16,039 nt of DNA. Origin: an uncultured Butyricicoccus sp. (lineage in GTDB: Bacteria; Bacillota; Clostridia; Oscillospirales; Butyricicoccaceae). The stretch spans positions 1 through 16,039 of the forward strand of contig UQVU01000030.1 of assembly GCA_900544475.1 (NCBI GenBank). The letters are read 5' to 3'. This document shows, piece after piece, positions 1 through 16,039 of the stretch. The notes beneath the pieces were generated by a model. The model worked only from the letters and a program-made list of their open reading frames with translations, did no database searches and was not told the origin of the DNA. The number at the start of each line of letters is the position of its first letter. Within the stretch, counting starts at the first letter, position 1. Both the position numbers and the translations under genes were made by a program.

Positions 1-162
1 ATAAGGAGAAAACCCGTCTGCACAATCTGGCATTATAAAAATAACGCGGACTGACCCTTTTATACAAGTCAGAGGCAGTGTAAGATAGAAGCATAAGAGG
101 AATAAACCGCCCGAAAAAATTTCGATTTCGGCGGGATGAAAAAAGAAACGAAGGTGTAACAC
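1..162 (+). promoter_or_regulatory. Leader region of the ECF S-component gene
   Basis: No gene is visible in this stretch. A hairpin with one bulged C forms between CCGCC-C-GAAA (107-116) and TTTCGGCGG (126-134), about 16 bases before the Shine-Dalgarno AAGGTG (151-156). A short dyad CTGAC (51-55) / GTCAG (68-72) surrounds an AT-rich TTTTATACAA. A weak -10-like TAAGAT sits at 81-86 without a convincing -35. S-component genes are often controlled by riboswitches, but I could not match this leader to a class I know, and the left edge of the window may cut off part of it. Confidence 0.35.
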
Positions 163-714: not shown

Positions 715-736
715 CACATCTATCCGTACTGATAAA

Positions 737-782
737 GAAAACCACCGCTTGACGCTTTTTACGGCGTTTCGCGGTGGTTTTC
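737..782. terminator. Bidirectional rho-independent terminator between convergent genes
   Basis: A perfect 12-bp stem pairs GAAAACCACCGC (737-748) with GCGGTGGTTTTC (771-782). An inner stem GACGC (751-755) / GCGTT (764-768) includes one G-T wobble. The A-run on one arm and T-run on the other give a U-tract in both directions, so it can end both the S-component transcript and the glgB transcript, whose stop codon lies only 15 bases beyond it. Confidence 0.9.
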
Positions 783-796
783 GTTATGTTTTCTTT

Positions 797-2545: not shown

Positions 2546-2563
2546 GTGAGCACTCCTTTCCGC

Positions 2564-3742: not shown

Positions 3743-3781
3743 ATAGCGTTACCTGCCCTTCGTGTAAAAAATCATACTTCC

Positions 3782-3810
3782 ATTATAGTAGTCCTCTTGA
3801 AAAAAGTCAA
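3782..3810 (-). promoter_or_regulatory. SigmaA promoter of the alcohol dehydrogenase-glgB operon
   Basis: Read on the minus strand, TTGACT (plus-strand 3805-3810) is followed by exactly 17 bases and a perfect TATAAT (3782-3787). Transcription would start near 3775, about 33 bases before the ATG. Its -35 hexamer lies two bases from the -35 hexamer of the opposing promoter at 3797-3825. Confidence 0.85.
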
Positions 3811-3825
3811 AAGATTAGATAAAAT
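3797..3825 (+). promoter_or_regulatory. SigmaA promoter of the CmpB-family membrane protein gene
   Basis: TTGAAA (3797-3802), a 17-base spacer and TAAAAT (3820-3825) give a good sigmaA promoter, with the start expected near 3832. The spacer contains the -35 of the divergent promoter, so RNA polymerase cannot occupy both at once. Confidence 0.75.
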
Positions 3826-3835
3826 ATAGGAATGC

Positions 3836-3857
3836 CGCCGCAGGAGGAAACGCGGCG
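3836..3857 (+). promoter_or_regulatory. 5'-UTR hairpin displaying AGGAGG in its loop
   Basis: CGCCGC (3836-3841) pairs perfectly with GCGGCG (3852-3857). The 10-base loop presents AGGAGGAAAC. This perfect anti-16S sequence is 28 bases from the annotated ATG (3876), too far to be its standard ribosome site. The nearer AAAGGAT (3861-3867) fits better. The hairpin could be a ribosome standby or regulatory site. Confidence 0.5.
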
Positions 3858-3875
3858 CTGAAAGGATGAAAAGCA

Positions 3876-4892
3876 ATGGGTTACAGCTATTCCGCTCCGC
3901 AGTGGCTGCTGGTATTCTTCCTGTACTGTGTACTCGGCTGGTGCTTCGAGTCCACGGTCGTTTCGGTAAAGCAGCGGCATTTTGTCAACCGCGGCTTTCT
4001 GCGCGGCCCGATGCTGCCGATTTACGGCTTCGGCGCGGTCATTCTGCTGCACGTTTCGCTGCCGCTTTACGACAAGCCGGTTGCGCTGTTCCTCGCGAGC
4101 ATGGTCGCGGCCACGGTTTTCGAGTATATTGTCGGTGTAATCATGGAAAAACTGTTCAAGGTGAAATACTGGGACTATTCCACCCACCGGTTTCAGTTTC
4201 AGGGGCGCATCTGTCTGCAATCCTCGCTCTGCTGGGGCTTTCTCGGGCTGATTCTCGTGCGCTGCATTCACCGGCCGGTCGAGTGGGTGATCGCCTTCCT
4301 GCCGTTCTGGGCGCTGGTCGCGGCGGACATCATCTGGTCGGCCGCGTTCCTCTCGGACGTTGTTGTATCCGTCCGTGCGGCTCTCGACCTTGCCAAGCTG
4401 CTTGAGGAACTCGACCGTCTGCGCGAGCAGGGCGCCGAGCTTCGTCAGGAGCTGAGCGAAACCGCGCTGACGCGCCTGACCAATCTCTCGTACCGCGTCG
4501 AGGAAGCCGCCGGCGAGCTGGCCGAGCGCACCCGCGACGCGCGGGAGGAGGCACAGGCGCGTACCGCCGCCGCAGCCATGCGTGCCGCCGACCTGCGTGA
4601 GGACCTCGAGCAGCGGCTTGACGAGGCGAAGGGCGAGCTTAGCGAGCGCACCCGCGATGTCCGCGAGGAAGCCGCCGCACGCCGCGCCGCCGCAGCCATG
4701 CGTGCCGCCGACCTGCGCGAGGATATTCAGAACCGTCTCGACGAGCTTCAGCGCCGCTTTGACGAGCGCGCCGCACGCCTCAGCCGCACGAGAAAGAGCC
4801 TGCTGCGCGGCAACCCGACCGCCCGTTCCGCACAGTACGACGTCGTTCTCCAGAAGCTGAAAAAACACCTCGACAGCCCTGAGAAGCATTAA
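3876..4892 (+). CDS. Putative ABC-transporter type IV family (CmpB/DUF1113) membrane protein with duplicated helical tail
   Basis: The first 170 or so residues match the PF06541-type family, labelled a putative ABC transporter permease although the function is unproven. Visible are the YC.LGW.FE motif in helix 1, FVNRGFLRGPMLPIYGFG (about 37-54) and FEYIVGVIMEKLF, with about five membrane segments. From about residue 170 the protein becomes a charged, Ala/Arg/Glu-rich helical tail, probably coiled coil and cytoplasmic. It contains two adjacent 40-residue repeats (214-253 and 254-293, 30 of 40 identical) beginning ELAERTRD and ELSERTRD. The start is the ATG after AAAGGAT. No ABC ATPase is nearby, so a transport role is not supported by context. 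The family call is good, the role unknown. Confidence 0.8.
   Translation: MGYSYSAPQWLLVFFLYCVLGWCFESTVVSVKQRHFVNRGFLRGPMLPIYGFGAVILLHVSLPLYDKPVALFLASMVAATVFEYIVGVIMEKLFKVKYWDYSTHRFQFQGRICLQSSLCWGFLGLILVRCIHRPVEWVIAFLPFWALVAADIIWSAAFLSDVVVSVRAALDLAKLLEELDRLREQGAELRQELSETALTRLTNLSYRVEEAAGELAERTRDAREEAQARTAAAAMRAADLREDLEQRLDEAKGELSERTRDVREEAAARRAAAAMRAADLREDIQNRLDELQRRFDERAARLSRTRKSLLRGNPTARSAQYDVVLQKLKKHLDSPEKH
4515..4754 (+). repeat. 120-bp in-frame tandem duplication inside the CmpB-family gene
   Basis: Two units, 4515-4634 and 4635-4754, each encode 40 residues. Bases 4565-4597 are identical to 4685-4717 (33 of 33), while the flanks have drifted. This indicates an in-frame unequal duplication that lengthens the helical tail. 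Confidence 0.9.
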
Positions 4893-4896
4893 AGCG

Positions 4897-4980
4897 GACG
4901 AAACCGGCGGCTAAAAAGATACAAAATGCACAAAGTAATGCAAAAACCGCCCTGCTGTGCGTCTTGTTTCGTCAGTTTTT
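4897..4980 (+). terminator. Possible long-armed terminator after the CmpB-family gene
   Basis: GACGAAAC (4897-4904) pairs with GTTTCGTC (4966-4973), followed by AG and TTTTT (4976-4980). An inner stem GGCGG (4906-4910) / CCGCC (4947-4951) stacks directly inside. GCACA (4928-4932) could also pair with TGTGC (4956-4960) as a pseudoknot. The loop is much larger than in ordinary intrinsic terminators, so the terminator role is tentative. Confidence 0.45.
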
Positions 4981-4983
4981 CAC

Positions 4984-5021
4984 TTGCTAAAATGCCCGTT
5001 TCGGGTGTATATTAGATATAC
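4984..5021 (+). promoter_or_regulatory. nifS promoter with overlapping palindromic operator candidate
   Basis: TTGCTA (4984-4989), an 18-base spacer and TATATT (5008-5013) form a plausible sigmaA promoter. A perfect interrupted palindrome GTATAT-TAG-ATATAC (5007-5021) covers the -10 and start point, and CCCG-TTT-CGGG (4995-5005) lies in the spacer. A repressor bound at 5007-5021 would block transcription. No known iron-sulfur regulator site was recognised. Confidence 0.6.
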
Positions 5022-5024
5022 GAA

Positions 5025-5094
5025 ATGAACCTACCGTTTTACTGGTAATTCATAGGGCGGCCCCGCAGGGGAAAACGCCTGTATGCGTGAGCAT
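5025..5094 (+). promoter_or_regulatory. Structured 5' leader of nifS
   Basis: Three consecutive hairpins follow the likely start point. The first is ATGAA-TACC (5025-5035) with GGTA-TTCAT (5044-5053). The second is GGCG (5056-5059) with CGCC (5076-5079) enclosing CCCC-GCA-GGGG (5061-5071). The third is ATGC with a GTGA (GNRA) loop and GCAT (5083-5094), then a short T-run. They fill most of the leader, ending about 30 bases before the start codon. I did not recognise a riboswitch class. Confidence 0.4.
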
Positions 5095-5123
5095 CCTTTT
5101 TAGGAAAGAAAGGCAGATATAAA

Positions 5124-6365
5124 ATGGAAAAGAGATTTGTATATGCGGACAACGCGGCGACGACCCCGCTGTCCGAAATCGCGTTTAACGCGATGAAGCC
5201 GTGGCTGACCGAGCACTACGGCAACCCGTCCTCGCTGTATCGCATGGGCCGCGAGGCGAAGGAGGCCATCAACGAGGCACGCCGCGTCGTTGCCAAGTGC
5301 CTGAACGTTGCGATGCCGGTCAACGAGCGCAACGACTACGCGCCGGGCGAAATCCTGTTCACCGGCGGCGGCTCGCAGGCGGACAACCTCGCTATCCGCG
5401 GCTTTATGCACGGTCCGTCCGCAAAGGGCCGTAAGCACATCATCACCTCCAAGATCGAGCATCACGCGGTTCTGTATACCTGCGAGGCGCTCGAAAAGGA
5501 AGGCTTCCGCGTCACCTACCTGAACGTTGACAAGGAAGGTCATGTTGACCTCGAGCAGCTGAAGCGCGAGCTTTCCGAGGACACCGCTCTGGTTTCCGTT
5601 ATGGCGGCGAACAACGAAATCGGCACCATTCAGCCGCTCAAGCAGATCTCCGAGCTGGCGCACTCGGTCGGCGCGGTTTTCCACACCGACGCCGTACAGG
5701 CAGTCGGCCATATGCACATCGACGTACAGGAAATGGGCATCGATATGCTGTCGCTCGCCGGCCATAAGTTCCGCGGCCCGCGCGGCACCGGCGTGCTGTA
5801 TGTCAAGAACGGCATTCAGCTTGAGCCGCTGGTTTACGGCGGCGGTCAGGAGCGCGGTCTGGTTTCCGGCACCGAGAACACCGCAGGCTTCATCGGTCTG
5901 GCGGCTGCGATGCAGGATGCGTGCGAGCATCTGGACGAAAAGATGGGCTACGTCAAGAAGCTGACCGACAAGCTCGTTAAGGGCATCATGGAGAACATTC
6001 CGTATGCGCACTACACCGGCGACCCGGTCAACCGCCTGCCCGGCACGGCTTCGTTTGTATTTGAGGCGATCGAGGGCGAGGGCCTGATCCTCCGTCTGGA
6101 CAACGCAGGCGTCTGCGGCTCGACCGGTTCGGCGTGCTCGACCGGCTCGCTCGACCCGTCCCATGTCCTCATGGCAATCGGCCTGCCGCACGAAATCGCG
6201 CACGGCTCTCTGCGCCTGACCCTCGGTGAGCAGAACACCGAGGAAGATGTAGATTACGTCATCGAGACCGTTACCGACGTCGTTAAGACCCTGCGCTCGA
6301 TGAGCCCGGTCTGGGAGAACGGCAAGCCGAATCTGACGGCGGCGACCGAGCTGCATGCGCATTAA
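5124..6365 (+). CDS. nifS: Cysteine desulfurase, NifS/IscS family
   Basis: A PLP enzyme that takes sulfur from cysteine and passes it as a persulfide to the scaffold encoded next door. At 413 residues it is the usual length. Seen are the N-terminal YADNAATTPL, the SKIEHHAV segment with H114, NNEIGT (163-168), FHTDAVQAVGH, the PLP lysine K215 in SLAGHKFRGPRG, and the sulfur-carrying Cys338 in GSACSTGS on the flexible loop. The phosphate-binding turn reads TGGGSQADN where a Glu or Thr-Glu is usual. The start is the ATG (5124) after GGAAAGAAAGG. nifU follows 63 bases later, and together they supply iron-sulfur clusters. Given the lack of nitrogenase genes, general cluster assembly is more likely than nitrogen fixation. 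Confidence 0.96.
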   Translation: MEKRFVYADNAATTPLSEIAFNAMKPWLTEHYGNPSSLYRMGREAKEAINEARRVVAKCLNVAMPVNERNDYAPGEILFTGGGSQADNLAIRGFMHGPSAKGRKHIITSKIEHHAVLYTCEALEKEGFRVTYLNVDKEGHVDLEQLKRELSEDTALVSVMAANNEIGTIQPLKQISELAHSVGAVFHTDAVQAVGHMHIDVQEMGIDMLSLAGHKFRGPRGTGVLYVKNGIQLEPLVYGGGQERGLVSGTENTAGFIGLAAAMQDACEHLDEKMGYVKKLTDKLVKGIMENIPYAHYTGDPVNRLPGTASFVFEAIEGEGLILRLDNAGVCGSTGSACSTGSLDPSHVLMAIGLPHEIAHGSLRLTLGEQNTEEDVDYVIETVTDVVKTLRSMSPVWENGKPNLTAATELHAH

Positions 6366-6428
6366 GTGCGCAGAAATGTTCCCCATAACATAATATTTCG
6401 TTTGATTGGACAAAAAGGAGATATATTT

Positions 6429-6863
6429 ATGCAGTACAGTGAAAAGGTACTTGATCATTTTACCCATCCGCGCAATGTTGGTGAGATTGAGGACGCAAAC
6501 GGCGTCGGCGAGGTCGGCAACGCAAAGTGCGGCGACATCATGAAGATTTACCTCAAGGTTTCGGACGACGGCATCATTGAGGACGTCAAGTTCAAGACCT
6601 TCGGCTGCGGCGCGGCAATCGCGACCAGCTCGATGGCGACCGAGATGGTAAAGGGCAAGAGCCTCGAAGAAGCGCTCAAGCTGACCAACAAGGCGGTTGC
6701 CGAGGCGCTGGACGGTCTGCCCCCGGTAAAGATGCACTGCTCCGTGCTCGCTGAGGAAGCACTGCGCTCCGCGATTTCCGACTACTACAAGCGCATGGGC
6801 AAGGACCCGGCGGAAATTCTCGGCTGCGACGCGGACTGTGCGGCTTGCCACAAAGAAGGCTAA
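6429..6863 (+). CDS. nifU: Iron-sulfur cluster assembly scaffold, NifU N-terminal/IscU type
   Basis: This 144-residue scaffold assembles Fe-S clusters from sulfur delivered by NifS. The three ligand cysteines are present: C34 in NAKCGDIMKIY (with D36), C60 in FGCGAAIATSS, and C104 in KMHCSVLAEEA. It has the IscU-like domain only, with no C-terminal Nfu domain. The last residues add C133, C137 and C140 (GCDADCAACH), a short cysteine-rich tail seen in Clostridial relatives. The start is chosen at ATG 6429 because AAGGAG (6415-6420) lies eight bases upstream and MQYSEKVLDHF is the family's normal start. A GTG directly after the nifS stop would add 21 unrelated residues. A terminator follows. Confidence 0.95.
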   Translation: MQYSEKVLDHFTHPRNVGEIEDANGVGEVGNAKCGDIMKIYLKVSDDGIIEDVKFKTFGCGAAIATSSMATEMVKGKSLEEALKLTNKAVAEALDGLPPVKMHCSVLAEEALRSAISDYYKRMGKDPAEILGCDADCAACHKEG

Positions 6864-6889
6864 TCGCTACGCAATAACACATATTCATC

Positions 6890-6916
6890 AGGGCAGATTG
6901 AAAAATCTGCCCTTTT
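6890..6916 (+). terminator. Rho-independent terminator of nifS-nifU
   Basis: A perfect 10-bp stem AGGGCAGATT (6890-6899) / AATCTGCCCT (6904-6913) with a GAAA loop, followed by TTT. Confidence 0.92.
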
Positions 6917-6978
6917 GGTGTCATGTTCGAAAAATTTTCGGCATAGGCATATATGTAATCTAATCGCGGAAGTATACC

Positions 6979-7059
6979 GTAGGGCGGGGTGCCCTCACCC
7001 CGCCGCTGTAAATCCGTGCAGACCGTTCAAAACGGCGGGCTGAGGGCAGCCCGCCCTAC
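6979..7059. repeat. 81-bp inverted-pair element of two GC hairpin repeats upstream of mfd
   Basis: Two 26-base copies of a GTAGGGCGGG repeat (6979-7004 forward, 7034-7059 reversed) face each other, with arms extending one base further on each side (6978, 7060). Each copy is itself a hairpin: GGCGGGGTG/CACCCCGCC with loop CCCT, and GGCGGGCTG/CAGCCCGCC with loop AGGG. One stem pair is flipped (G-C to C-G) between copies. The middle holds CCGTT-CAA-AACGG (7023-7035). An outer pairing AAATCCGTGC (7010-7019) / GCACGGATTT (7067-7076) gives an alternative fold enclosing the second copy. The look is that of a small non-autonomous or REP-like repeat. Confidence 0.85.
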
Positions 7060-7117
7060 GACAGGCGCACGGATTTTCTGATAATAATTTATAAACACGC
7101 TCACGGGAGGTGAACGC

Positions 7118-10100
7118 ATGACGGAGATTACAAAAAGTATAACATTCCTGAATGAATACAAACAGTTGAAGAAAGCGCTCGAAGAGGGGAAAACGCCGGT
7201 GCTGGCGGTCGGACTCGCGGCCATTCACAAGGCGAACCTCGCCGCGGCGCTCGGCGCAGACCTGAAGCGCCCGGTTCTGGTGCTGACGGACGATGACAAC
7301 GCCGCGAACCGCTTTGCCGCCGACCTGCGCGGCTTTTCCGAGCGCGAGGTCGTGGTTCTGCCGTCCCGCGAGCTGGTCATGGCGGATGTGGCCGGTGTGT
7401 CGCGCGGCTACGAGCAGGCACGTCTTGCCTCGCTCGCGGCGCTCCCCGGCGCGGCTTTCGCGGTCGCGTCCGTGCAGGCGGCGGCGCAGCGCACCATGCC
7501 GCCCGAGCTGCTGCGCTCGTCTGTCGTTACGCTGACGGCGGGGGAGAGCGCACCGCTCGATGAGCTGACGCGCGGTCTGGTCAGCGCCGGCTACGAGCGC
7601 TGTGCGCAGGTCGAGGGAGCGGGCCAGTTCTCGGTGCGCGGCGGCATTCTGGACATTTTTCCGCCGCAGTCGGCGAACCCGTACCGCGTGGAGTTCTGGG
7701 ACGATGAGATCGACTCGATTTCGACCTTCGACGTCGGCAGTCAGCGGCGTCTGGAGCAGTGCGACACACTGCGCTGCCTGCCGTGCATGGAAACCATTCC
7801 GGCACTCGCGAAGGGCGGCGCGGCAGGACTTGCGAAAGCGGTGCTGGCGCTTGTTTCCACCCGTCGCAAGAAGCAGCACGCCGAGCTTCAGAAAAATCTG
7901 GAGCGCGACGCGGAACGTCTGCGCGAGAGCGGCACGCTCCCGGCGGCGGACAAGTATATGCCGCTTATTTACCCGGAAATAACGACTGCGTTCGATTATC
8001 TGGCGGAAAACACGCTCGTGCTCATCGAGGACACGCCCCGTCTGCGCGACGCGGCCCGCGACTTTCACGCCCGTATCGCGGACGATGTGACGGCGCTCAT
8101 GGAGCGCGGCGAGATGCCGGGCGGTCTGGACGGCTACGCCCTTGATTTCGCCGGTATCTGCGGCGTAAAGCGGCAGATCGTGCGTCTGGACAGCTTTCTG
8201 AACAACGTTTCCGAGCTTGCGCCGCAGCACCTTGAGAACTTCGTTGCCAACCAGATGAACGCCTACGGCGGCAATCTGGACATGGCCTCCGCCGACATCC
8301 GCAGCTACACCGAGCAGGGACGCGCGGTGGCGGTCGTGTGCGGCAGCGAGCTGCGGTGCCGGAATATGCTCGACGCGCTGACGGACAGCGGTCTGCGTGC
8401 GCAGCTGAGCGACCTGCTGCCGAAGGGCGGCTGCGTCAACATCATGGAGGGCACGCTGTCCGCCGGTTTCGAGTACCCCGACCTCGGTCTGGTGGTCATG
8501 ACCGAAGGACAGGTGCTCGCGCGGCGCAAAAAGGCCAAGGTCAAGCGCTCGAACCGCGACCGCGTCAAGTCGTTCACCGACCTGTCGCCCGGCGACCTCG
8601 TCGTGCACGAGCACCACGGCATCGGCCGCTTTATCGGCATGGAGCGCATGACGGTGGACGGTTCCGAGCGCGATTTCATCAAAATCGCCTTCGCCGGCAC
8701 GGATTTTCTCTATGTCCCGGCGACCTCGCTCGACCTTATCTCCAAGTACATCGGCTCGGGCGACACCGAGCGCGTGCGGCTGAGTAAGCTCGGCGGCACG
8801 GACTGGGGCAAGGCCAAGGCACGCGCCAAGGCGGCGGCGAAGGAGCTGGCGGACGGGCTTATCAAGCTGTACGCTGCCCGCGCTAAGGTCAAGGGCTTCG
8901 CCTTCCCGGAGGACGATGCATGGCAGCGCGAGTTCGAGGAGGCGTTCCCGTATGAGGAAACCGACGACCAGCTGCGCTGCATCGCGGAGATCAAGGACGA
9001 TATGCAGTCCGACCGGCCGATGGACCGCCTGCTGTGCGGCGATGTCGGCTTCGGCAAGACCGAGGTCGCGCTCCGCGCCGTGATGAAGTGCATCCTCGCG
9101 GGCAAGCAGGCGGCCATCCTCGTGCCCACGACCGTGCTCGCGCGGCAGCACTATCTGACCGCGCTTCAGCGCTTTCAGGGGCATCCGGTGACGATCGAGC
9201 TGCTGACGCGCTACAAGACCGGCGCGGAGCAGACAAAGCTGCTCAAAAAGCTCGAAGCCGGTTCGGTCGATTTAGTTATCGGCACGCACAAGCTGTTCAA
9301 CAAGAAGATAAAGTTCAAGGATCTCGGTCTGCTCGTCGTGGACGAGGAGCAGCGCTTCGGCGTCGGCCACAAGGAAACGCTCAAGGAAATGAGCAGGAAC
9401 GTGGACGTTCTGACGCTTTCCGCGACGCCCATTCCTCGCACGCTCAACATGGCGCTCTCGGGCATCCGCGATATGTCCTCCATCGAAGAGCCGCCGATGA
9501 ACCGCCATCCGGTGCAGACGTTCGTCCTCGAACAGAACGACGGCGTGCTGCTCGACGCGATACGGCGCGAACTGGCGCGCGGCGGTCAGGTCTACTACCT
9601 GCACAACCGCGTCGAGTCCATCGAAAAGTGCGCGGCGGCGTGGCAGGCGCGTCTGCCGGACGCCCGCATCGGCATCGTCCACGGCAAGATGGGGCAGAGG
9701 GAAATCGCAAACGTCATGAACGAGATGGCGGACGGCGAGATAGACATCCTCATCTGCACGACCATCATCGAAACCGGCATCGACATCCCGAACGCGAACA
9801 CGCTCATCATCGAAAACGCGGACAACATGGGTCTGGCGCAGCTGCACCAGATCCGCGGCCGTGTCGGCCGTTCCTCGCGCCACGCCTATGCCTATCTGTG
9901 CTACCGCCGGGGCAAGGCGCTGAGCGAGATCGCGCAGAAGCGCCTGTCCGCGATACGCGAGTACGCGGCGTTCGGCTCGGGCTTCAAAATCGCCATGCGT
10001 GACCTCGAAATCCGCGGCGCGGGCAACGTGCTCGGCCCGGAGCAGTCCGGCCACATGATGAGCGTCGGCTATGACCTGTACCTCAAGCTGCTCGAAGAAG

Positions 10101-10573
10101 CCGTGCAGGAGGAAAAGGGCGAAACGCCGAAGCCGCGCGTGGACTGCGCCGCCGAACTGCTGCTCTCGGCCAACCTGCCGAACGAGTATGTCCCGGACGC
10201 GGGTCAGCGCATCGACCTCTACCGCCGCATCGCGCTCATCCGCACCGAGGAGCAGCGCAGCGATATGCTCGACGAGCTGATCGACCGCTTCGGCGAGCCG
10301 CCAGAGGAGGCGGTGGCGCTGCTCGATATTGCGCTGCTGCGCTCGCAGGCGAGCGAAAAGGGCATTGCGGAAATCAAACAGCAGGACGGCCGTCTGCTGC
10401 TGACCTTTGCGGAAACCGACTTCGCGCGGCTGTCCGCTCTGTGCGGCGACAGCGCGTTCAAGGGACGCCTGCTGCTCAATGCAGGCTCGTCGCCCTACCT
10501 GTCGCTGCGGCTTGAGCGGAACGAAAGGGCGATGGATATGGCGCGGCTTCTGGTTGACAAATACAGCGCGTGA
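7118..10573 (+). CDS. mfd: Transcription-repair coupling factor
   Basis: Mfd is a DNA translocase that removes stalled RNA polymerase from lesions and recruits UvrA. At 1151 residues it has full family length. The N-terminal UvrB-like part includes GGILDIFPP followed by the YRVEFWDDEIDSI segment (about 170-200). The RNA-polymerase-interacting domain has VHEHHGIGRFIGMERM (about 494). The translocase has Walker A GDVGFGKTE (about 641-650), DEEQ box VVDEEQRFG (about 740), LSATPIPRTL, and motif VI with HQIRGRVGRS. The TRG region RGAGNVLGPEQSGHM (about 966) is followed by the C-terminal TRCF domain. The start is ATG with GGGAGGTGA just upstream. No promoter stands out in 6917-7117; TGATAATAAT near 7079 is a weak -10 candidate. 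A MarR gene follows 17 bases after the stop. Confidence 0.97.
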   Translation: MTEITKSITFLNEYKQLKKALEEGKTPVLAVGLAAIHKANLAAALGADLKRPVLVLTDDDNAANRFAADLRGFSEREVVVLPSRELVMADVAGVSRGYEQARLASLAALPGAAFAVASVQAAAQRTMPPELLRSSVVTLTAGESAPLDELTRGLVSAGYERCAQVEGAGQFSVRGGILDIFPPQSANPYRVEFWDDEIDSISTFDVGSQRRLEQCDTLRCLPCMETIPALAKGGAAGLAKAVLALVSTRRKKQHAELQKNLERDAERLRESGTLPAADKYMPLIYPEITTAFDYLAENTLVLIEDTPRLRDAARDFHARIADDVTALMERGEMPGGLDGYALDFAGICGVKRQIVRLDSFLNNVSELAPQHLENFVANQMNAYGGNLDMASADIRSYTEQGRAVAVVCGSELRCRNMLDALTDSGLRAQLSDLLPKGGCVNIMEGTLSAGFEYPDLGLVVMTEGQVLARRKKAKVKRSNRDRVKSFTDLSPGDLVVHEHHGIGRFIGMERMTVDGSERDFIKIAFAGTDFLYVPATSLDLISKYIGSGDTERVRLSKLGGTDWGKAKARAKAAAKELADGLIKLYAARAKVKGFAFPEDDAWQREFEEAFPYEETDDQLRCIAEIKDDMQSDRPMDRLLCGDVGFGKTEVALRAVMKCILAGKQAAILVPTTVLARQHYLTALQRFQGHPVTIELLTRYKTGAEQTKLLKKLEAGSVDLVIGTHKLFNKKIKFKDLGLLVVDEEQRFGVGHKETLKEMSRNVDVLTLSATPIPRTLNMALSGIRDMSSIEEPPMNRHPVQTFVLEQNDGVLLDAIRRELARGGQVYYLHNRVESIEKCAAAWQARLPDARIGIVHGKMGQREIANVMNEMADGEIDILICTTIIETGIDIPNANTLIIENADNMGLAQLHQIRGRVGRSSRHAYAYLCYRRGKALSEIAQKRLSAIREYAAFGSGFKIAMRDLEIRGAGNVLGPEQSGHMMSVGYDLYLKLLEEAVQEEKGETPKPRVDCAAELLLSANLPNEYVPDAGQRIDLYRRIALIRTEEQRSDMLDELIDRFGEPPEEAVALLDIALLRSQASEKGIAEIKQQDGRLLLTFAETDFARLSALCGDSAFKGRLLLNAGSSPYLSLRLERNERAMDMARLLVDKYSA

Positions 10574-10590
10574 AAAAGGAGAAAAACACC

Positions 10591-11043
10591 ATGAAAAACA
10601 CCGATATTCACCGTCTGCTGTCGCGGTACTACGAAACGTGGGCAGGCATCAACGCGGCCTACGACCGCATCGCGGCGAGGTGCGGCGTGACCTCCAACGT
10701 TCTGTATCTGCTCGACACGCTGTACTGCGCCGAAGCGCCCATGACGCAGAGCGAAATCGGTGCGCGGCTCGGCCTGCCCAAGCAGACGGTCGCGAGCATG
10801 GTGAGCACGCTTGAACGCCGGGGGTACGTGGTGCGCGAGGTAGCGAAGGACGACCACCGCCGCCGCCACGTCCTGCTGACGGACGAAGGCCGCGCCTATG
10901 CAAAGCCGCTCAGCGAAACCGTCTGTGCCTTCGAGCAGGCCGCTTTCGAGCGGATGGAGCCGGACGAGCGGCTCGCCCTCGTGGAAACAAGCGAAAAATT
11001 GCAGAAAGCGCTGAATGCCGTGCTGGATTCAGCACAGGATTGA
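10591..11043 (+). CDS. MarR-family transcriptional regulator
   Basis: A 150-residue DNA-binding regulator, expected to act as a dimer. The winged helix lies at about 51-100: MTQSEIGARLGLPKQTVASM (recognition helix), LERRGYVVRE, and the wing KDDHRRRHVLLTDEG. Flanking helices would form the dimer. The start is ATG 10591 with AAGGAG (10576-10581) nine bases upstream. A GTG overlapping the mfd stop (10570) is in frame but would place the ribosome site inside the gene. The short 17-base gap suggests co-transcription with mfd, with a terminator right after (11055-11084). The ligand and targets are unknown. The inverted repeat at 11113-11154 downstream is a candidate binding site. Confidence 0.9.
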   Translation: MKNTDIHRLLSRYYETWAGINAAYDRIAARCGVTSNVLYLLDTLYCAEAPMTQSEIGARLGLPKQTVASMVSTLERRGYVVREVAKDDHRRRHVLLTDEGRAYAKPLSETVCAFEQAAFERMEPDERLALVETSEKLQKALNAVLDSAQD

Positions 11044-11054
11044 CTGCATACCGG

Positions 11055-11084
11055 GACCGGAGTCGCAAGACCCCGGTCTTTTTT
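11055..11084 (+). terminator. Rho-independent terminator after the MarR gene
   Basis: A 10-bp stem with one A-C mismatch, GACCGGAGTC (11055-11064) / GACCCCGGTC (11069-11078), a GCAA tetraloop and TTTTTT. It starts 11 bases after the stop codon. Confidence 0.92.
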
Positions 11085-11112
11085 ACATGATTTTTCCACC
11101 CAAATGAAACAT

Positions 11113-11154
11113 AAGTGTAACATTTCTCCGCCTTGTGTCATGTTTGTTACACTT
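11113..11154. promoter_or_regulatory. Operator-like inverted repeat upstream of the 11167 promoter
   Basis: AAGTGTAACA (11113-11122) and TGTTACACTT (11145-11154) are perfect inverted copies 22 bases apart. Between them GTGTCA (11135-11140) forms a further imperfect dyad with TTACAC (11147-11152). The right half ends 12 bases before the -35, a usual position for an activator or repressor site. The cognate protein is unknown; the adjacent MarR product is one candidate. Confidence 0.55.
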
Positions 11155-11166
11155 GCCCCGGTTTCC

Positions 11167-11195
11167 TTGTGTGAAGGGATACAAGGCGGTATAAT
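11167..11195 (+). promoter_or_regulatory. SigmaA promoter of the WG-repeat/SLH gene leader
   Basis: TTGTGT (11167-11172), a 17-base spacer and a perfect TATAAT (11190-11195). Transcription should start near 11202, giving a leader of about 255 bases before the next gene. A six-base dyad CCTTGT/ACAAGG (11165-11170 / 11181-11186) overlaps the -35 and spacer and may bind a regulator. Confidence 0.75.
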
Positions 11196-11236
11196 TTTAA
11201 CTGGACAACTGCTGAAATAAAATCAGTATCAGCTTC

Positions 11237-11311
11237 CGCGCGACAGCGCGCATAAAATACAAGCCGCGCAGCGGCTTGATAAAAACCGGGAGCATGTATC
11301 ACGGTTTTTAT
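11237..11311 (+). repeat. Three-hairpin structured element, copy A
   Basis: Hairpin 1 is CGCGC-GACA-GCGCG (11237-11250). A nine-base linker CATAAAATA follows (11251-11259). Hairpin 2 is CAAGCCGC-GCA-GCGGCTTG (11260-11278). Hairpin 3 pairs ATAAAAACCG (11279-11288) with CGGTTTTTAT (11302-11311) around a 13-base loop. The second copy at 15930-16004 has the same length and layout with compensatory stem changes. The T-run in the last arm could act as a weak terminator. Confidence 0.85.
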
Positions 11312-11329
11312 ACTGTTTCACCTTTCCAC

Positions 11330-11355
11330 GTAGGGCGGGGTGCCCTCACCCCGCC
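11330..11355 (+). repeat. 26-base GTAGGGCGGG hairpin repeat, third copy
   Basis: Identical in all 26 bases to 6979-7004. It folds as GGCGGGGTG / CACCCCGCC with a CCCT loop. It stands alone here, between the three-hairpin element and the ATGGGAACTTTC motif (11361-11372). Confidence 0.88.
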
Positions 11356-11456
11356 GCCGCATGGGAACTTTCGGACGTCCGTGTTTTGCGAAGTCAAAAC
11401 ACAGACCCGCGGCAAAACGTTAGTTTTGCGACAGGCTTACAAGGATGGAAAATGCT

Positions 11457-13709
11457 ATGATGAAAAAACTTTTCTGCACCGTTTTTGCGGTGTTTGCCGT
11501 CATGACGGCGGCGGGCGCTGTGGGAAATATCTTCCCGGCGAGCCGCACGGATATTGACGGCGTGACCCGTTCGGGTTATCTCGATGAGGACGGACGCACG
11601 GTTCTGTCGTTCTCTTATGCTACGGCGGGCGATTTCGCGCCCTGCGGACTCGCGGCGGTCGAGGACGACAAGTGGCAGACGGCGGTCATCGACCGTGAGG
11701 GCAAGCTCGTCATCGACTACACTGAGTCGCCGGTTTCGGTCGATTTCTCGGACGACATGGTGGCCTACCGCTACGCCGATCACAGCGTCTACTACACGCT
11801 CTCTGGCACGAAAATCGGCTCGTATCCGGGCGCGGAGGGCTTTTTTGAGGACGGTCTGCTGCTGTGCAGGGACGCCTCGACCGGCCTTTACTCCTTCGTC
11901 AAGCAGGACGGCACGGCGGCGTTTTCCGCGTCCTTTGCCGCAGCCGGCGCGTTTTCGGACGGCCTTGCGCTCGTGCGCAGCGCGGACAGCGGCTATCTCG
12001 TGCTCGACACGGAGGGCAAAACCGTTGCGGCGCTGGAGGCCGGCGCGGACCCCGCGTACTATACGGTCTACGGCGGCGATACGGTCGTGATGACGAACGG
12101 CACCAACTACGCGCTCTATTCGATTTCAAAGGGCGCGTACCTGACGGATTTTCTCTATAACGTCGTGTCCGAGTTCCATGACGGCGCGGCCATGGTGCGC
12201 CAGATCAACCGCTGGGGCATCATCGACACGAAAGCCAAGCTGCTGACCAATCCGACCTATTACTACCTCAGCTACATGGGCGAGGGCCTGTACGCCGCGC
12301 GAAGCGAGGACGGCTCGGTCGCGGCGGTGGACGCAAGCGGCAACATCGCCTACCGCACGCTCACCTATATCGGCGGCTTCAACGAGCTGCGCTACGGCCT
12401 GTCGTGGCACGGCATGGCGGACGGCAGCCTGATTTTCTTCAAGAAGAACGGCGGCTACTTCGCAAGCCTCAAAAACGCTGAAAATCCGACGCTTCTGAGC
12501 GAAAACGTCGTCCGCGTCACGCAGGACGGCACCATCAAGTACATCAATCTCTCGACCGGCACGACCCTGCTTTCGCAGGCGACCTCGTTCGACCTCGGCA
12601 GCGGCATCACCGCGAAAACCGTGCACTACGAGAAGTTCATGGGCTATCAGTCGGACGGCACCGAGCACGGCTGGAACGTCGATTTCCCGGAAATCAGCGG
12701 CCTTGCGGACGCAGAGGTGCAGAAAACCATCAACGCCGACATCCGCGCGTTCTTCCTCAAGGGCCCGTCCGTCACGGCGGAATACGAGGCGCTCGAGGGC
12801 ACCTACGGCGCGTCTGTCGAGGGTTCGGTGCTCGTTGTCTGGGCGAACTGCGTCAGCGGACGCGGCATGGGCGCGGCGGTCTGGAACAACAGCCTTGCCT
12901 TCGATATGAACACAGGAAAACAGTACCGCCTGACCGACCTGCTGACGGGCGACTATATCGAAACGGTAAAGAAGCTGCTCCCAGCGGAGCACGAGGTCTA
13001 TCTGTACAGCTTCCCGCGCATCAGCGCCAAGGGCGTTACCTATTACTATAACGAATACGAGAGCGCAACGCGCCGCGCGTATACCGAAAGCTATCTGCTG
13101 ACCTACGAGGCGCTCGGCGCTGCGGTCGACCGCAAGAGCGCGTGCTATGCGGCGCTGCTGACGCCGTACACCCGTCCGGCTGCGGCGGCAAAGATCACGT
13201 TTTCGGACGTTCCCGCGTCCTACTGGGCGGCGGAATATATCGAGCAGGCGGCATCGGACGGCCTGATGACCGGCTCGCAGGGCGAGTTCCGCCCCGAGGC
13301 GACCATCACCGAGGCTGAGGTCTGCATGACGCTCGCACGCCGCGAGGGTCTGGATACCGCCTCGAACAGCACGGTCTGGTACGCGGGCGCGATGTCCTCC
13401 GCAGAGAACGCCGGTCTGCTCGACGGAGTGACCGCCGCTCCCGAAAAGGCGATGACCCGTGCCGACACCATGCAGGTGTTCGCGAACGTGCTCGTGCGCG
13501 GCGGCGCAGCGCTTCCCGATGAGCAGCAGACCGCCGACACCCTGAAAAACGTAAAAGACGCGGTCTCCATCCCGGCGGATCGCCGTGCGGCTGTGGCGCT
13601 CTGCATGGAGCGCGGCCTGATCTCCGGCTACGAGGACGGCACCATCCGTCCGCAGCAGACGATCAACCGCGCCGCCTTCGCCAAGCTGATGGTGACGGCG
13701 GAATTTTAA
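11457..13709 (+). CDS. Secreted WG-repeat, DUF4163/DUF3298 and S-layer-homology protein
   Basis: A surface protein of about 750 residues. A signal peptide (MMKKLFCTVFAVFAVMTAAGA) is followed by WG/KWG-type beta repeats (about 35-380) marked by repeated units such as GLAAVEDDKWQTAVIDREGKL and RQINRWGIIDTKAKL. Next is a DUF4163-DUF3298 module (about 386-575, with FDMNTGKQYRLTDLL), related to the extracellular part of RsiV and PdaC. Three SLH domains (about 581-750; FSDVPASYWAAEYIEQAA, ending NRAAFAKLMV) would anchor it to cell-wall polymer. The start is uncertain among ATG 11445, 11457 and 11460; AAGGATGG at 11441-11448 favours 11457 or 11460. It has its own promoter and a strong terminator. 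Ligand-sensing or wall-associated roles are inference. Confidence 0.85.
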   Translation: MMKKLFCTVFAVFAVMTAAGAVGNIFPASRTDIDGVTRSGYLDEDGRTVLSFSYATAGDFAPCGLAAVEDDKWQTAVIDREGKLVIDYTESPVSVDFSDDMVAYRYADHSVYYTLSGTKIGSYPGAEGFFEDGLLLCRDASTGLYSFVKQDGTAAFSASFAAAGAFSDGLALVRSADSGYLVLDTEGKTVAALEAGADPAYYTVYGGDTVVMTNGTNYALYSISKGAYLTDFLYNVVSEFHDGAAMVRQINRWGIIDTKAKLLTNPTYYYLSYMGEGLYAARSEDGSVAAVDASGNIAYRTLTYIGGFNELRYGLSWHGMADGSLIFFKKNGGYFASLKNAENPTLLSENVVRVTQDGTIKYINLSTGTTLLSQATSFDLGSGITAKTVHYEKFMGYQSDGTEHGWNVDFPEISGLADAEVQKTINADIRAFFLKGPSVTAEYEALEGTYGASVEGSVLVVWANCVSGRGMGAAVWNNSLAFDMNTGKQYRLTDLLTGDYIETVKKLLPAEHEVYLYSFPRISAKGVTYYYNEYESATRRAYTESYLLTYEALGAAVDRKSACYAALLTPYTRPAAAAKITFSDVPASYWAAEYIEQAASDGLMTGSQGEFRPEATITEAEVCMTLARREGLDTASNSTVWYAGAMSSAENAGLLDGVTAAPEKAMTRADTMQVFANVLVRGGAALPDEQQTADTLKNVKDAVSIPADRRAAVALCMERGLISGYEDGTIRPQQTINRAAFAKLMVTAEF

Positions 13710-13717
13710 GGAGACTC

Positions 13718-13759
13718 TTTCCCGGCTTCCCGAAAAAGGAACGCCGGGAAATTTTTTTT
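13718..13759 (+). terminator. Rho-independent terminator of the SLH gene
   Basis: TTTCCCGGC (13718-13726) pairs perfectly with GCCGGGAAA (13743-13751), with an inner TTCC/GGAA stem, followed by eight Ts (13752-13759). Confidence 0.93.
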
Positions 13760-13784
13760 GAACCGAAATCCTCCTCGCGGCTCT
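13759..13784 (+). promoter_or_regulatory. Possible ECF-type autoregulatory promoter of the sigma-factor operon
   Basis: TGAACC (13759-13764), 16 bases, then CTCT (13781-13784) resembles the TGAAC-N16-CGTC layout of ECF sigma promoters, though the -10 match is poor. The -35 overlaps the last T of the preceding terminator. TATATA at 13785-13790 has no -35 at a usual sigmaA distance. Downstream the leader contains a perfect hairpin GCAGGT-CGCGC-ACCTGC (13805-13821) before the ribosome site. Confidence 0.35.
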
Positions 13785-13840
13785 TATATACAGATGCATC
13801 GAAAGCAGGTCGCGCACCTGCAAGGAAAGGACAGGATAAG

Positions 13841-14398
13841 ATGACAGATTGTGAACTCGTCCGGCGGATGCAGCAGGGCGATATGCAGGCGTTCGACGCG
13901 CTTTACGAGCGCTACCGGGACGATGCGTACCGGCTCGCCTGCCTCATCACCGGCAGCCGGACGGACGGCGAGGACCTCGCGCAGGAGGCGTTCGTCACCT
14001 GCGTGCAGTCGATCCGCTCGCTGAAGGACGGGTCGAAATTCCGCCCGTGGCTGCTGCGGACGCTCTCGCGGTCGGCGTGGAAATACTGCCGCAAGGCGAA
14101 GCGTGAAACGCCCGTCAGCGAGTTTTTCGAGGGGGAAACCGGAGAAAGCGCGCTTTCCGCCGTGCTCCGGACCGACGAGCAGCGCCGGCTGTACGCCGCG
14201 CTCGACACGCTCGACGAAAAACGCCGCGTGACGGTCGTGCTCTACTACTTTGACGACCGCTCCGTAAAAGAAATCGCACAGGCGACCGGCGTGACCGAAG
14301 GCACGGTCAAGAGCCGCCTGTTTTCCGCCCGCCGCCATCTGCGGCAGGCGCTGACCGACCGGGAAAGCAGACCAAAGGAGGTCGCATCACATGAATAA
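13841..14398 (+). CDS. ECF-subfamily RNA polymerase sigma factor
   Basis: A 185-residue group 4 sigma factor that directs RNA polymerase to a small regulon, usually for envelope stress. Region 2 is at about 8-80: QQGDMQAFDALYERY, CLITGSRTDGEDLAQEAFV, and FRPWLLRTLSRSAWKYCRK. Region 4 is at about 120-175: LDTLDEKRRVTVVLYYFDD, then the helix-turn-helix VKEIAQATGVTEGTVKSRLF. Length and two-domain layout are normal. The start is ATG 13841 after AGGACAGG. Its last eight bases overlap the next gene, which indicates translational coupling with its probable antagonist. The regulon and inducing signal are unknown; the neighbouring RsiV-related surface protein suggests an envelope signal (inference). 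Confidence 0.95.
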   Translation: MTDCELVRRMQQGDMQAFDALYERYRDDAYRLACLITGSRTDGEDLAQEAFVTCVQSIRSLKDGSKFRPWLLRTLSRSAWKYCRKAKRETPVSEFFEGETGESALSAVLRTDEQRRLYAALDTLDEKRRVTVVLYYFDDRSVKEIAQATGVTEGTVKSRLFSARRHLRQALTDRESRPKEVASHE

Positions 14399-15155
14399 GA
14401 CGGAATTTGACGAAAAGATGAAGAATATGCTGCATGAGTGCGCAGATGACCTGCACGCGCCGGACACGATGAAAACGCGCGTTGACTTTGCGCTGAGGAG
14501 CGCACAGGTAAAGCCGCGCCATCGCTGGGGCAAGCGTATCGCCGTTCTCGCGGCGGTCGCCGCTATCGCCGTCACGGGCGCGTTCGCCGCAGGCGGTCTC
14601 GGCAGCATCACGAGCCATTCGTGGGCAAATCAGCGCATGAGCCTTGCGCAGACGCAGGAGCACATGGACCAGGCGGGCGTAGAATTTACTCTGCCCGAGA
14701 GCATCGGCGGCTTTACGTTCTCCCACGGCTATGATGCGGATACGCTCGCGGAAAGCGCCGCCGGTGAGCGCGAACAGGTCAAGGAGGTCAACGCCGAGTA
14801 CGAAAAGGACGGCGTAACGCTGAATTTCAGCGCACACAAGGTGTATACCGTGTTCTCCGACGAGGAGAGCAGCGACCCGGAGCCGGACGAGGTGCAGGAG
14901 GTAAACGGCGTGACGCTTTCCTTCCGGGACTCGCATTACCGCTTCGTTCCGCCCGACTACGAGCCGAGCGACGAGGAAAAGAAACTGGAGCGCCGCGGCG
15001 AGCTGACCATCAGCTATGGCTCGGATGAGGTCGAGGACAGGCAGTTCCAGTCGGTAATCTGGGAGAAGGACGGCATGAGCTACATCCTGTACGGCTTTGA
15101 TACCGGCCTTGACAGCGAAGAAATGCTGTCGATGGCGGCGGAACTCGTGAAATAA
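14391..15155 (+). CDS. Single-pass membrane protein with DUF4367-like domain, probable anti-sigma factor
   Basis: A 254-residue protein expected to hold the ECF sigma factor inactive at the membrane. The N-terminal 45 or so residues are cytoplasmic and charged, with FDEKMKNMLHECADDLHAP and MKTRVDFAL, as in relatives of this type. There is no HxxxCxxC zinc anti-sigma motif, only one Cys in that part. One membrane helix spans about 49-68 (RIAVLAAVAAIAVTGAFAAGG). The outside part (about 70-254) ends in SVIWEKDGMSYILYGFDTGL and EEMLSMAAELVK, which fits a DUF4367 C-terminus. The start ATG overlaps the sigma stop (ATGAATAA). The role rests on gene order and topology; direct proof is absent. Confidence 0.8.
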   Translation: MNKTEFDEKMKNMLHECADDLHAPDTMKTRVDFALRSAQVKPRHRWGKRIAVLAAVAAIAVTGAFAAGGLGSITSHSWANQRMSLAQTQEHMDQAGVEFTLPESIGGFTFSHGYDADTLAESAAGEREQVKEVNAEYEKDGVTLNFSAHKVYTVFSDEESSDPEPDEVQEVNGVTLSFRDSHYRFVPPDYEPSDEEKKLERRGELTISYGSDEVEDRQFQSVIWEKDGMSYILYGFDTGLDSEEMLSMAAELVK

Positions 15156-15179
15156 AGTTTCCCGGCGGCTCATGATTAC

Positions 15180-15205
15180 GGCGGGGTGGGGTCACCCCGC
15201 CCTAC
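15180..15205 (-). repeat. 26-base GTAGGGCGGG hairpin repeat, fourth copy (reversed)
   Basis: Read on the minus strand it starts GTAGGGCGGGGTG like the other copies, with the same nine-bp stem but a changed loop (ACCC in place of CCCT). It lies 24 bases after the anti-sigma gene and 24 bases before the terminator. Confidence 0.85.
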
Positions 15206-15229
15206 GGAATAAGAGGCTTGGACAAACGA

Positions 15230-15274
15230 AAAGCGTTCCCGTGAGAGAAAATCTCAAGCGGGAACGCTTTTTTT
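15230..15274 (+). terminator. Strong two-tier terminator of the sigma-factor operon
   Basis: AAAGCGTTCCCG (15230-15241) pairs perfectly with CGGGAACGCTTT (15259-15270). Inside, TGAGA (15242-15246) pairs with TCTCA (15252-15256). TTTT follows. The A-run before the left arm could also let it stop transcription in the reverse direction. Confidence 0.95.
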
Positions 15275-15343
15275 CGGGAAATACAGCCGTCACAAGTGTT
15301 CATTTCCTCCCTGCGCGCTTCGGCACGGCTCGCGGCGGCGTCG

Positions 15344-15352
15344 TGATACAAT
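15344..15352 (+). promoter_or_regulatory. Possible extended -10 promoter of the last gene
   Basis: TG-A-TACAAT (15344-15352) matches an extended -10. No good -35 is seen, which extended -10 promoters can tolerate. It lies about 70 bases before the proposed start codon. The rest of 15275-15420 shows nothing else. Confidence 0.45.
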
Positions 15353-15420
15353 AGGCATCCGCCGCAGACAAAGCACGCTGCGGCAATTCAAGGCAAACGG
15401 AGGAACCGGACACGATTACA

Positions 15421-15921
15421 TTGACAGAGAAACGGCACAGAACGGGTGAAAACAGCGGGGAAAACGCGGAAAAGACGGCCGTCCGGGTCGCGCGGCGCTG
15501 TGTCAGCCTGCGGCAGGGAGGCGAGGCGGCGCTCTGCGTCCTCGATACCGGCGACGCGCCCGAGCGGGAGCGCGACAGCCTGACGAGCGTAGGGGAGGGC
15601 ATGGTGCTCGACAGCGAGGCGGTGCGGCTCGGGGAGCACGGCACGGTGCACGAGCTGGCGGAGGGCGAGCTGTTCCGCTGGGCCTATATACGCGGCTTTG
15701 ACGAGCTGCGCTTTACGCACCCGATCGCGCTCAGCGCCGGGCAATGCATGGTGCACCTGCGGCTGACCAACGCGCGGGTCGGCATGGAGCAGATTGTTTT
15801 CTATACCGCGCTCGGCGGCGGTCTGGCGCGCGTGGACAGGCTGTGGCGCACCTTCGCCGGAAAAGAGGAACGCTCGCAGTCCTTTGACGCCGCCGCCGCG
15901 GCGCTGATGGCAGCGGGGTGA
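15421..15921 (+). CDS. Hypothetical protein, family not recognised
   Basis: A 166-residue soluble protein that I do not recognise. It has no signal peptide or membrane helix. The first 25 residues are charged and look disordered (TEKRHRTGENSGENAEKTA). The remainder alternates short beta-like segments, such as CVSLRQGGEAALCVLDTG, GMVLDSEAVRLGEHGTVHEL and RWAYIRGFDELRFTHPI, then VHLRLTNARVGMEQIVFYTALGGG and an Ala-rich end. Codon use and GC match the neighbours, which supports a real gene. The start is weak: TTG 15421 is 17 bases from the clear GGAGG (15399-15403), and no ATG or GTG is in frame before a stop at 15352-15354, so a rarer start such as ATT 15415 is possible. It sits alone between two terminator-like structures. 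Confidence 0.6.
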   Translation: MTEKRHRTGENSGENAEKTAVRVARRCVSLRQGGEAALCVLDTGDAPERERDSLTSVGEGMVLDSEAVRLGEHGTVHELAEGELFRWAYIRGFDELRFTHPIALSAGQCMVHLRLTNARVGMEQIVFYTALGGGLARVDRLWRTFAGKEERSQSFDAAAAALMAAG

Positions 15922-15929
15922 GGGAAAGT

Positions 15930-16004
15930 CGTGCGCAAGCACGCATAAAATACAGTTTGCGGCGCAAATTGATAAAAACCGGGGACATGCGCCTCGGTTT
16001 TTAT
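15930..16004 (+). repeat. Three-hairpin structured element, copy B
   Basis: Hairpin 1 is CGTGC-GCAA-GCACG (15930-15943). The linker is CATAAAATA (15944-15952). Hairpin 2 is CAGTTTGC-GGC-GCAAATTG (15953-15971), with one G-T wobble. Hairpin 3 pairs ATAAAAACCG (15972-15981) with CGGTTTTTAT (15995-16004) around a 13-base loop. It starts eight bases after the stop codon of the preceding gene, so here it occupies the 3' end of a transcript. Confidence 0.85.
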
Positions 16005-16019
16005 ACTTCCAGAGGGAGA

Positions 16020-16039
16020 AAGTTCCCGAATGGGAACTT
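16020..16039. repeat. Inverted repeat at window end linked to the hairpin element
   Basis: AAGTTCCC-GAAT-GGGAACTT is a perfect eight-bp stem cut by the window edge. Its right half ATGGGAACTT also occurs at 11361-11370, downstream of copy A, so the motif travels with the three-hairpin element. Confidence 0.7.

Follow-up and report, generated by a model that had tools for sequence, protein, structure and literature searches.

What is a folded sequence that occurs twice in one stretch of bacterial DNA, once in front of a gene and once just behind an open frame? The question is raised by a stretch of 16,039 nucleotides (nt) from an uncultured Butyricicoccus sp. (assembly GCA_900544475.1, contig UQVU01000030.1, positions 1 to 16,039), here called the window as a whole, in which two 75-nt copies of a three-hairpin element lie at 11237-11311 (copy A) and 15930-16004 (copy B), both on the + strand and aligning with each other without gaps. 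The answer reached in the following is that the repeat is very probably a miniature inverted-repeat transposable element (MITE) with ends of the IS1182 type, which usually inserts into terminator hairpins and duplicates them; the unit, its mobility and its target are newly worked out here.

The original prediction, made from the sequence of the window, had pointed out the two copies and the compensatory changes between them, and its description held in every detail: the nine-base linker CATAAAATA, the loops of 4, 3 and 13 nt and the stem of hairpin 3 are identical in copies A and B, and four pairs are changed on both sides, namely pair 3 of hairpin 1 (C-G in one copy, T-A in the other) and pairs 4-6 of hairpin 2, which are G-C, C-G and C-G in copy A and T-A in copy B; pair 3 of hairpin 2 is A-T in copy A and G-T in copy B. 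The placement was also right, copy A lying inside a 5′ leader and copy B beginning 8 nt past the stop codon of an open frame. Folded as + strand RNA, copy A reached −33.0 kcal/mol (z-score −5.6) and copy B −30.5 kcal/mol (z-score −4.6), and none of 200 shuffled sequences folded as well as either of them. In relatives the 13-nt loop of hairpin 3 mostly closes further, leaving a loop of 7 nt.

The statement that the element belongs to no described family agrees with Rfam, whose gathering score was not reached anywhere in the window and which matched, in seven related loci (L216 and L218 among them), only a SAM riboswitch and a tRNA, and nothing of the element. The matches to tsr31 and CrfA, obtained at relaxed E-values, were discarded as far under threshold; 21 exact-pattern matches in GTDB representative contigs were likewise set aside as chance, none of them folding like the element.

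A gene-less unit with inverted-repeat ends

Relatives of the source genome were reached through an Mfd search in 291 genomes of a class, the best being G120 with 66% identity. A covariance model built from the two window copies alone, the check that had been suggested with the original prediction, did find further copies: at E ≤ 0.1 it had hits in 33 of the 87 genomes searched in the nearest family, 27 of them at E ≤ 1e-5 (best 5e-17), and the matches in the remaining six were weak (4e-5 to 0.096). Many of the matched genomes carry tens of copies; in G297, a single contig of 4.0 Mb, there are 48 at E < 0.01. When genomes were drawn evenly across the order, 21 of 394 matched at E ≤ 0.001, and eight of these lie outside the nearest family; their scores are weak (33-47 bits), and it is hairpin 3 that carries the match.

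The copies compared below come from two sets of hits. From the first set of 86 we left out L033, L035, L036 and L037, whose positions are already covered by longer loci, together with L055+ and L056+, which are weak hits on the opposite strand; from the second set of 83 we left out the duplicates L103, L104, L127 and L157. There remained 159 copies, or 158 distinct ones after removal of one identical sequence; for G297 they comprise all 48 with E < 0.01, and for G294-G296 a part of the copies listed.

These copies revealed two things that the original prediction had missed: the full unit extends beyond 75 nt, and copy B is truncated at the end of the window. The 75-mer forms just the 5′ portion of a unit that carries no gene and has inverted-repeat ends, TCAGnCTGTCrAA on the left and TTyGACAGnCTGA on the right. 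The distance from end to end is 214-270 bp in most copies, 187 bp in the shortest and 343 bp in the longest, and no transposase gene lies within it. In G297 the 5′ side is made up of a left end like TCAGnnTGTCAAA, hairpin 1, the linker, hairpin 2 and hairpin 3, and the 3′ side of a two-part stem and two more hairpins, of which the last ends in TTTGACAGTCTGA. The ends, the extra hairpins and the hairpins that flank the element are visible in an alignment of 20 copies. In most of L063-L082 the left end recurs in inverted form before the right one (CAGACTGTCAAAA...TTTTGACAGTCTG), giving an end-to-end palindrome of about 34 bp.

Duplication of whole hairpins at the insertion sites

Both ends were recognised, at 10 or more of 13 matches, in 95 of the 158 distinct copies. 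A duplication of the flanks (score of at least 15) was present in 79 of these 95, the median score over the 95 being 28, whereas only one of 1000 mismatched flank pairs, taken as control, reached 15. The 79 copies with a duplication all come from G294-G297. The duplications mostly begin and stop exactly at the ends of the element, are 20-44 bp long (median 31) and are identical on the two sides in 40 cases; in 76 of the 79 at least 60% of the duplicated sequence is self-paired, so that what is repeated on either side is a hairpin. Five of the 79 pairs differ in length between the two sides and were assigned to neither the direct nor the inverted class.

A T-tract follows on the right in 49 of the 79 and an A-tract precedes on the left in 51, with both in 32 and either in 68; therefore the target usually resembles a terminator, in many cases on both strands. 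The element shows no preference for one orientation, 17 copies having only the T-tract on the right and 19 only the A-tract on the left. As to their position, 76 of the 79 copies are intergenic (24 between convergent, 41 between tandem and 11 between divergent frames), one lies in a frame and two at the edge, and the median distances to the frames, called by length only, are 36 and 30 bp.

Empty sites were found as well. A 12-kb stretch of G296 with two copies aligns to G297 at 98-99%, both copies are missing in G297, and one hairpin is left at each of the empty sites; thus the two insertions tested both have an empty counterpart.

In a few duplications (L126, L166, L171, L174, L236) the two hairpin copies have loops that are reverse complements of each other; we take these to be possibly ordinary template-switch mutations, and no mechanism is built on them. 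In addition, CTCGCGCCGCAGCGCGAG or a closely similar sequence, which resembles the element's hairpin 1, is present in flanking hairpins at L073 (3781), L208 (1766) and L075. Hairpin 1 might thus have derived from such a hairpin, or the element might land in its own kind.

IS1182-type elements with the same ends

Transposases of the IS1182 type accompanied by the ends of the element occur in the nearest family and in its order. In L073 the G297 copy has as its left end TCAGACTGTCAAAGAACC, which is also the end of an insertion sequence (IS) of G296, and 19 of 19 bases are identical between a G294 copy and the IS of L230. Among 33 IS1182-type loci examined, ten (L230, L232, L234, L236, L237, L238, L245, L249, L255 and L258) combine both ends with a duplicated hairpin of 20-35 bp; L249, L255 and L258 belong to one IS, which has five copies in G553. 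A near-full-length transposase frame is present in nine of the ten, L245 matching the query in part. Three transposases with these ends passed the NCBIfam model NF033551 (IS1182 equivalog, cut-off 270), L139 scoring 403.5, L234 401.7 and L236 385.8 bits, against 91 for the fragment L137 and 365 for L132, which has other ends. This last locus, in G294, was rejected as a helper: its transposase is of the IS1182 type, but the ends differ by eye (GGGGCTGTCGCAC). In genomes that bear the element, an end of this type beside a hairpin was found at 5 of 16 IS1182 loci looked at (in G296, G298, G302, G304 and G312).

An IS1182 transposase is the most likely mover, because the ends of the element are those of IS1182-family ISs in the same bacterial family, and it would act in trans. 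Insertion usually occurs in a host hairpin, mostly an intrinsic transcription terminator, with one cut at either foot of the hairpin, so that the whole stem-loop (20-44 bp) is duplicated; the hairpin may be recognised as an extruded cruciform. Inserting into terminators and duplicating them would let the element reach about 50 copies near gene ends at low cost. Taken together, the 79 MITE copies and the ten IS loci are natural examples of whole-hairpin duplication at IS1182-type ends, so that the structure-guided choice of a target by a DDE transposase is directly testable.

Several observations weigh against this account. On the side of the target, 63 of the 158 copies failed the end test, 16 of the 95 with both ends show no such duplication, and the copies are related, so that the counts are not numbers of independent events. 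On the side of the helper, no duplication accompanies the two ends of L231 (a fourth G553 copy), L233 and L250; G297, whose 48 copies include many with perfect duplications, gave no match to an IS1182 transposase at E ≤ 0.001; and the IS1182 model matches 15 of 25 element-bearing genomes, with G294 alone (L132) over the cut-off, and gave no match in G295 either. Thus, the helper would be mostly lost, fragmentary or missed in the assemblies. Moreover, element and IS share only their ends (12-19 bp): when the core was compared with 14 IS loci, nothing beyond the ends was found except short matches, 13-19 bases long and none with an E-value better than 0.008. Finally, the window copies themselves lack both a duplication and an intact left end; copy A is in a leader and not in a terminator, and the far end of copy B lies outside the window. 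The account is therefore stronger for the family than for these two copies.

Copies A and B in the window

All features described here are on the + strand. Copy A sits between a TATAAT (11190..11195) and the ribosome-binding site of a gene with SLH domains and WG repeats (11445..13709; Pfam SLH and WG_beta_rep, and orthologues). The TATAAT is present in all 12 upstream regions of orthologues (L145-L156). The element is absent from all 12 orthologous leaders fetched, which are a subset of 23 close full-length matches to the SLH gene. At the insertion joint these leaders read CAAGGATGG in ten cases and a one-base variant in two, and because the orthologues continue in this way the right boundary of copy A is fixed at 11439. 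Judged by the sequences of the orthologues, the leader of the SLH gene received copy A by a lineage-specific insertion. The same comparison revealed no duplicated target hairpin at its flanks, and its left end is degenerate, a TCAGCTT at 11229..11235 being a possible but weak remnant, seen in the sequence only, of an expected TCAGnCTGTC that is not intact; copy A is therefore taken as an older or an atypical insertion.

From 5′ to 3′ copy A consists of hairpin 1 (11237..11250; 5 bp with a GACA loop), drawn from folding and the alignment of the copies, the linker (11251..11259), drawn from the alignment, hairpin 2 (11260..11278; 8 bp with a triloop) and hairpin 3 (11279..11311; CAUG loop), both of which are also backed by covariation, a 3′ half (11312..11429) with more hairpins, including GGAACTTTCGGACG, common to some G294 copies, and GCAAAAC-GTTA-GTTTTGC, and the imperfect right inverted-repeat end GACAGGCTTA (11430..11439), identified as the right boundary of the insertion by the orthologue comparison. 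An extra GC-rich hairpin, GGGCGGGGTGCCCTCACCCCGCC, lies within the fourth stem of copy A (11333-11355) and was not seen in the G294 copies read. Upstream of copy A, after a MarR-like open frame, there is a terminator-like hairpin with T6, found by eye, at 11055-11084.

Copy B follows an open frame without a Pfam match (15421..15921), which ends 8 nt before it. The copy has no left end, and its right end is beyond the window. By folding and copy alignment it comprises hairpin 1 (15930..15943), hairpin 2 (15953..15971) and hairpin 3 (15972..16004, placed also by the hairpin-3 alignment), the same linker lying at 15944..15952 by copy alignment; they are followed by the first part of the 3′ half (GAGGGAGAAAGTTCCC...GGGAACTT, 16005..16039), cut by the end of the window.

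The structured core and alternative explanations

The original prediction had proposed that the fold itself is selected, and the covariation across many genomes supports it. In 86 aligned hits (77 distinct) 98.9% of the cells pair, against at most 54% in slid controls, and two-sided changes occur at 21 of 23 pairs. Since the alignment was fitted to the structure and the hits are related copies, the number of independent events is overstated; the covariation does not come from the fit alone, because several pairs of hairpin 2 show all four Watson-Crick types at one pair. Full-length folding was more stable on the + strand in 94 of 94 distinct copies (mean −94.6 vs −84.5 kcal/mol) and folding of the three-hairpin part in 124 of 141 distinct sequences, G-U cells number 20 vs 9 A-C cells, and the + strand had the better z-score in 10 of 10 chosen relatives. 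This bias in the modelled folds points to an RNA, and not only to DNA hairpins, the copies again not being independent of each other.

A selected fold can be read in another way, namely that the core consists of one or more functional structured RNAs, serving the host or the element, for which the IS1182 ends are one of several vehicles. We consider this explanation, which has a real though clearly smaller chance of being correct, the strongest of the alternatives. It is favoured by the strand bias, by the lack of similarity between core and IS beyond the ends and by hairpin 3, whose own model (R2) matched 17 of 391 genomes of the class at E ≤ 0.001, G297 included, six others having from 8 to at least 17 copies. 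Hairpin 3 with a CAUG or CGUG loop was seen in other multi-copy repeats of Clostridia (L216-L223, L259-L277, L280-L310). Across 29 sequences of both kinds of repeat, i.e., 27 chosen by their CATG loop and the two window copies, 98.1% of the hairpin-3 cells are paired and 12 of 13 pairs change on both sides. Its loop varies, being CATG in 92, CGTG in 18, another sequence in 19 and unassigned in 12 of the 141 distinct three-hairpin sequences.

In 31 loci outside G297 (L280-L310) hairpin 3 is present throughout, with the loop CATG in 16, CGTG in 14 and CACG in one, and the best scores for IS1182-type ends, 8-11 of 13, are near those of shuffled flanks (7-11). Most of these loci show, by eye, a recurrent layout: a hairpin such as CTCGAAAGGGAACTCCCTTTCGA is followed by an AU-rich linker, hairpin 3, CCUU or a sequence close to it, and a stem whose inner hairpin varies and whose 3′ side often contains CGTAAGCGnAAGCGCCC; a few (L289, L305-L307) have a different 3′ side. 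Direct repeats around 30 elements sharing only hairpin 3 are mixed: about two thirds have none, and eight mismatched control pairs also scored at least 14; L308 and L283 have repeats of 15-16 bp that derive from hairpins, L217 and L261 have longer repeated hairpins, and others are tandem or dispersed. Against a functional RNA as the primary entity stand the copy numbers and the polymorphic sites, which look parasitic, and the fact that the layout outside hairpin 3 was compared by eye and not by a model.

In the MITE with IS1182-type ends the core comprises hairpin 1, an AU-rich linker, hairpin 2, hairpin 3 with its CAUG or CGUG loop and further stems, and its likeliest role would be that of a transcribed structured insulator or passenger RNA, which might make insertions beside genes tolerable. 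We can tentatively imagine, as a possibility that we hold less likely than its opposite, an undescribed Clostridia-wide structured RNA (hairpin, AU-rich linker, hairpin with a CAUG or CGUG loop, CCUU, and stem with a variable inner hairpin; a CGUAAGCGnAAGCG strand in several genomes) that would ride in several unrelated families of mobile repeats, the IS1182-type MITE of the window among them. Its strand-selected fold would aid spread or insulation, and the IS1182 vehicle would insert at the feet of terminator cruciforms, any terminator being a possible target that is restored after the insertion. The covarying core, which has one hairpin in common with other repeats, is a candidate for a new class of RNA.

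It is unlikely that the three hairpins are dispersed terminators or processing sites selected at gene ends. The 5′ arm of hairpin 3 is A-rich and its 3′ arm CGGTTTTTAT-like, and the copies with a duplication lie at a median of 30-36 bp from frames; but several copies break the T-run yet keep the pairing, e.g., CGGAATTTAT, copy A is upstream of a gene, and two positions tested are polymorphic between near-identical genomes. The earlier suggestion of a terminator is true of the usual insertion target. As to the element's own hairpin 3, a simple terminator scan made no call in either window copy, an outcome that says little, because its T's, which in an intrinsic terminator would form an unpaired run after a GC stem, are paired with A's in the stem.

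The suggestion of a REP-like mobile repeat fared similarly: the mobile repeat stood, as a MITE that has inverted repeats of the IS1182 type and duplicates long hairpin targets, and the likeness to REP was not shown. A repetitive extragenic palindromic (REP) sequence or bacterial interspersed mosaic element (BIME), moved by a REP-associated tyrosine transposase (RAYT) of the Y1 type, would also be dispersed, palindromic and mostly intergenic, and yet it is highly improbable, though no search aimed at RAYT genes was made, in view of the unit of 215-270 bp with its inverted-repeat ends, the long target duplications and ends common to a DDE-type IS. Chance similarity of two hairpin-rich stretches is refuted by the matches at E ≤ 1e-5 in 27 of the 87 family genomes, and its probability is negligible.

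Comparison with known systems

Group IIC introns insert beside terminator hairpins and are retroelements that are not known to duplicate their target. The element resembles them in its insertion at terminator hairpins and differs from them in having a target duplication; a group IIC intron as such was rejected for the window, where an Rfam match is lacking.

Among small mobile repeats, the element is like BOX, RUP and SPRITE of Streptococcus pneumoniae, which fold as RNA and have features of MITEs, and which are described as overrepresented between convergent genes, SPRITE being terminator-like (PMC3049150). To the extent of their descriptions in that source, it is set apart from them by the organism, by the ends and by the hairpin-duplicating insertion, which is not described there. 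With prokaryotic MITEs in general it shares the short length, the absence of genes, the inverted-repeat ends and the stable folds of the transcript, and it differs from the general account in the duplication of a hairpin or terminator target and in one hairpin common to other repeat families (PMC10969869). A text search for IS1182 in this review gave no mention, and no IS1182 MITE with whole-hairpin duplication was found in the open-licence literature of PubMed Central (PMC), surveyed mostly through listings.

A close parallel is IS1272 (TnSha1), an IS1182-family element of Staphylococcus, which is reported to insert in hairpins, many of them terminators, and to replace or delete the hairpin, leaving no duplication (PMC4923244, PMC5678879). 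Like IS1272, the element described here belongs with the IS1182 family in its ends and inserts in hairpins and terminators without specificity for a primary sequence. Unlike IS1272, it duplicates the whole target hairpin instead of deleting it, and a deletion without duplication is not matched by the element, which has the whole hairpin on both sides in 79 of 95 copies. As far as PMC5678879 presents it, a whole-hairpin duplication was drawn for IS1272 only as a hypothetical alternative (pathway b); the present elements fit that drawing, because the length of their duplications tracks the hairpin and not a fixed stagger.

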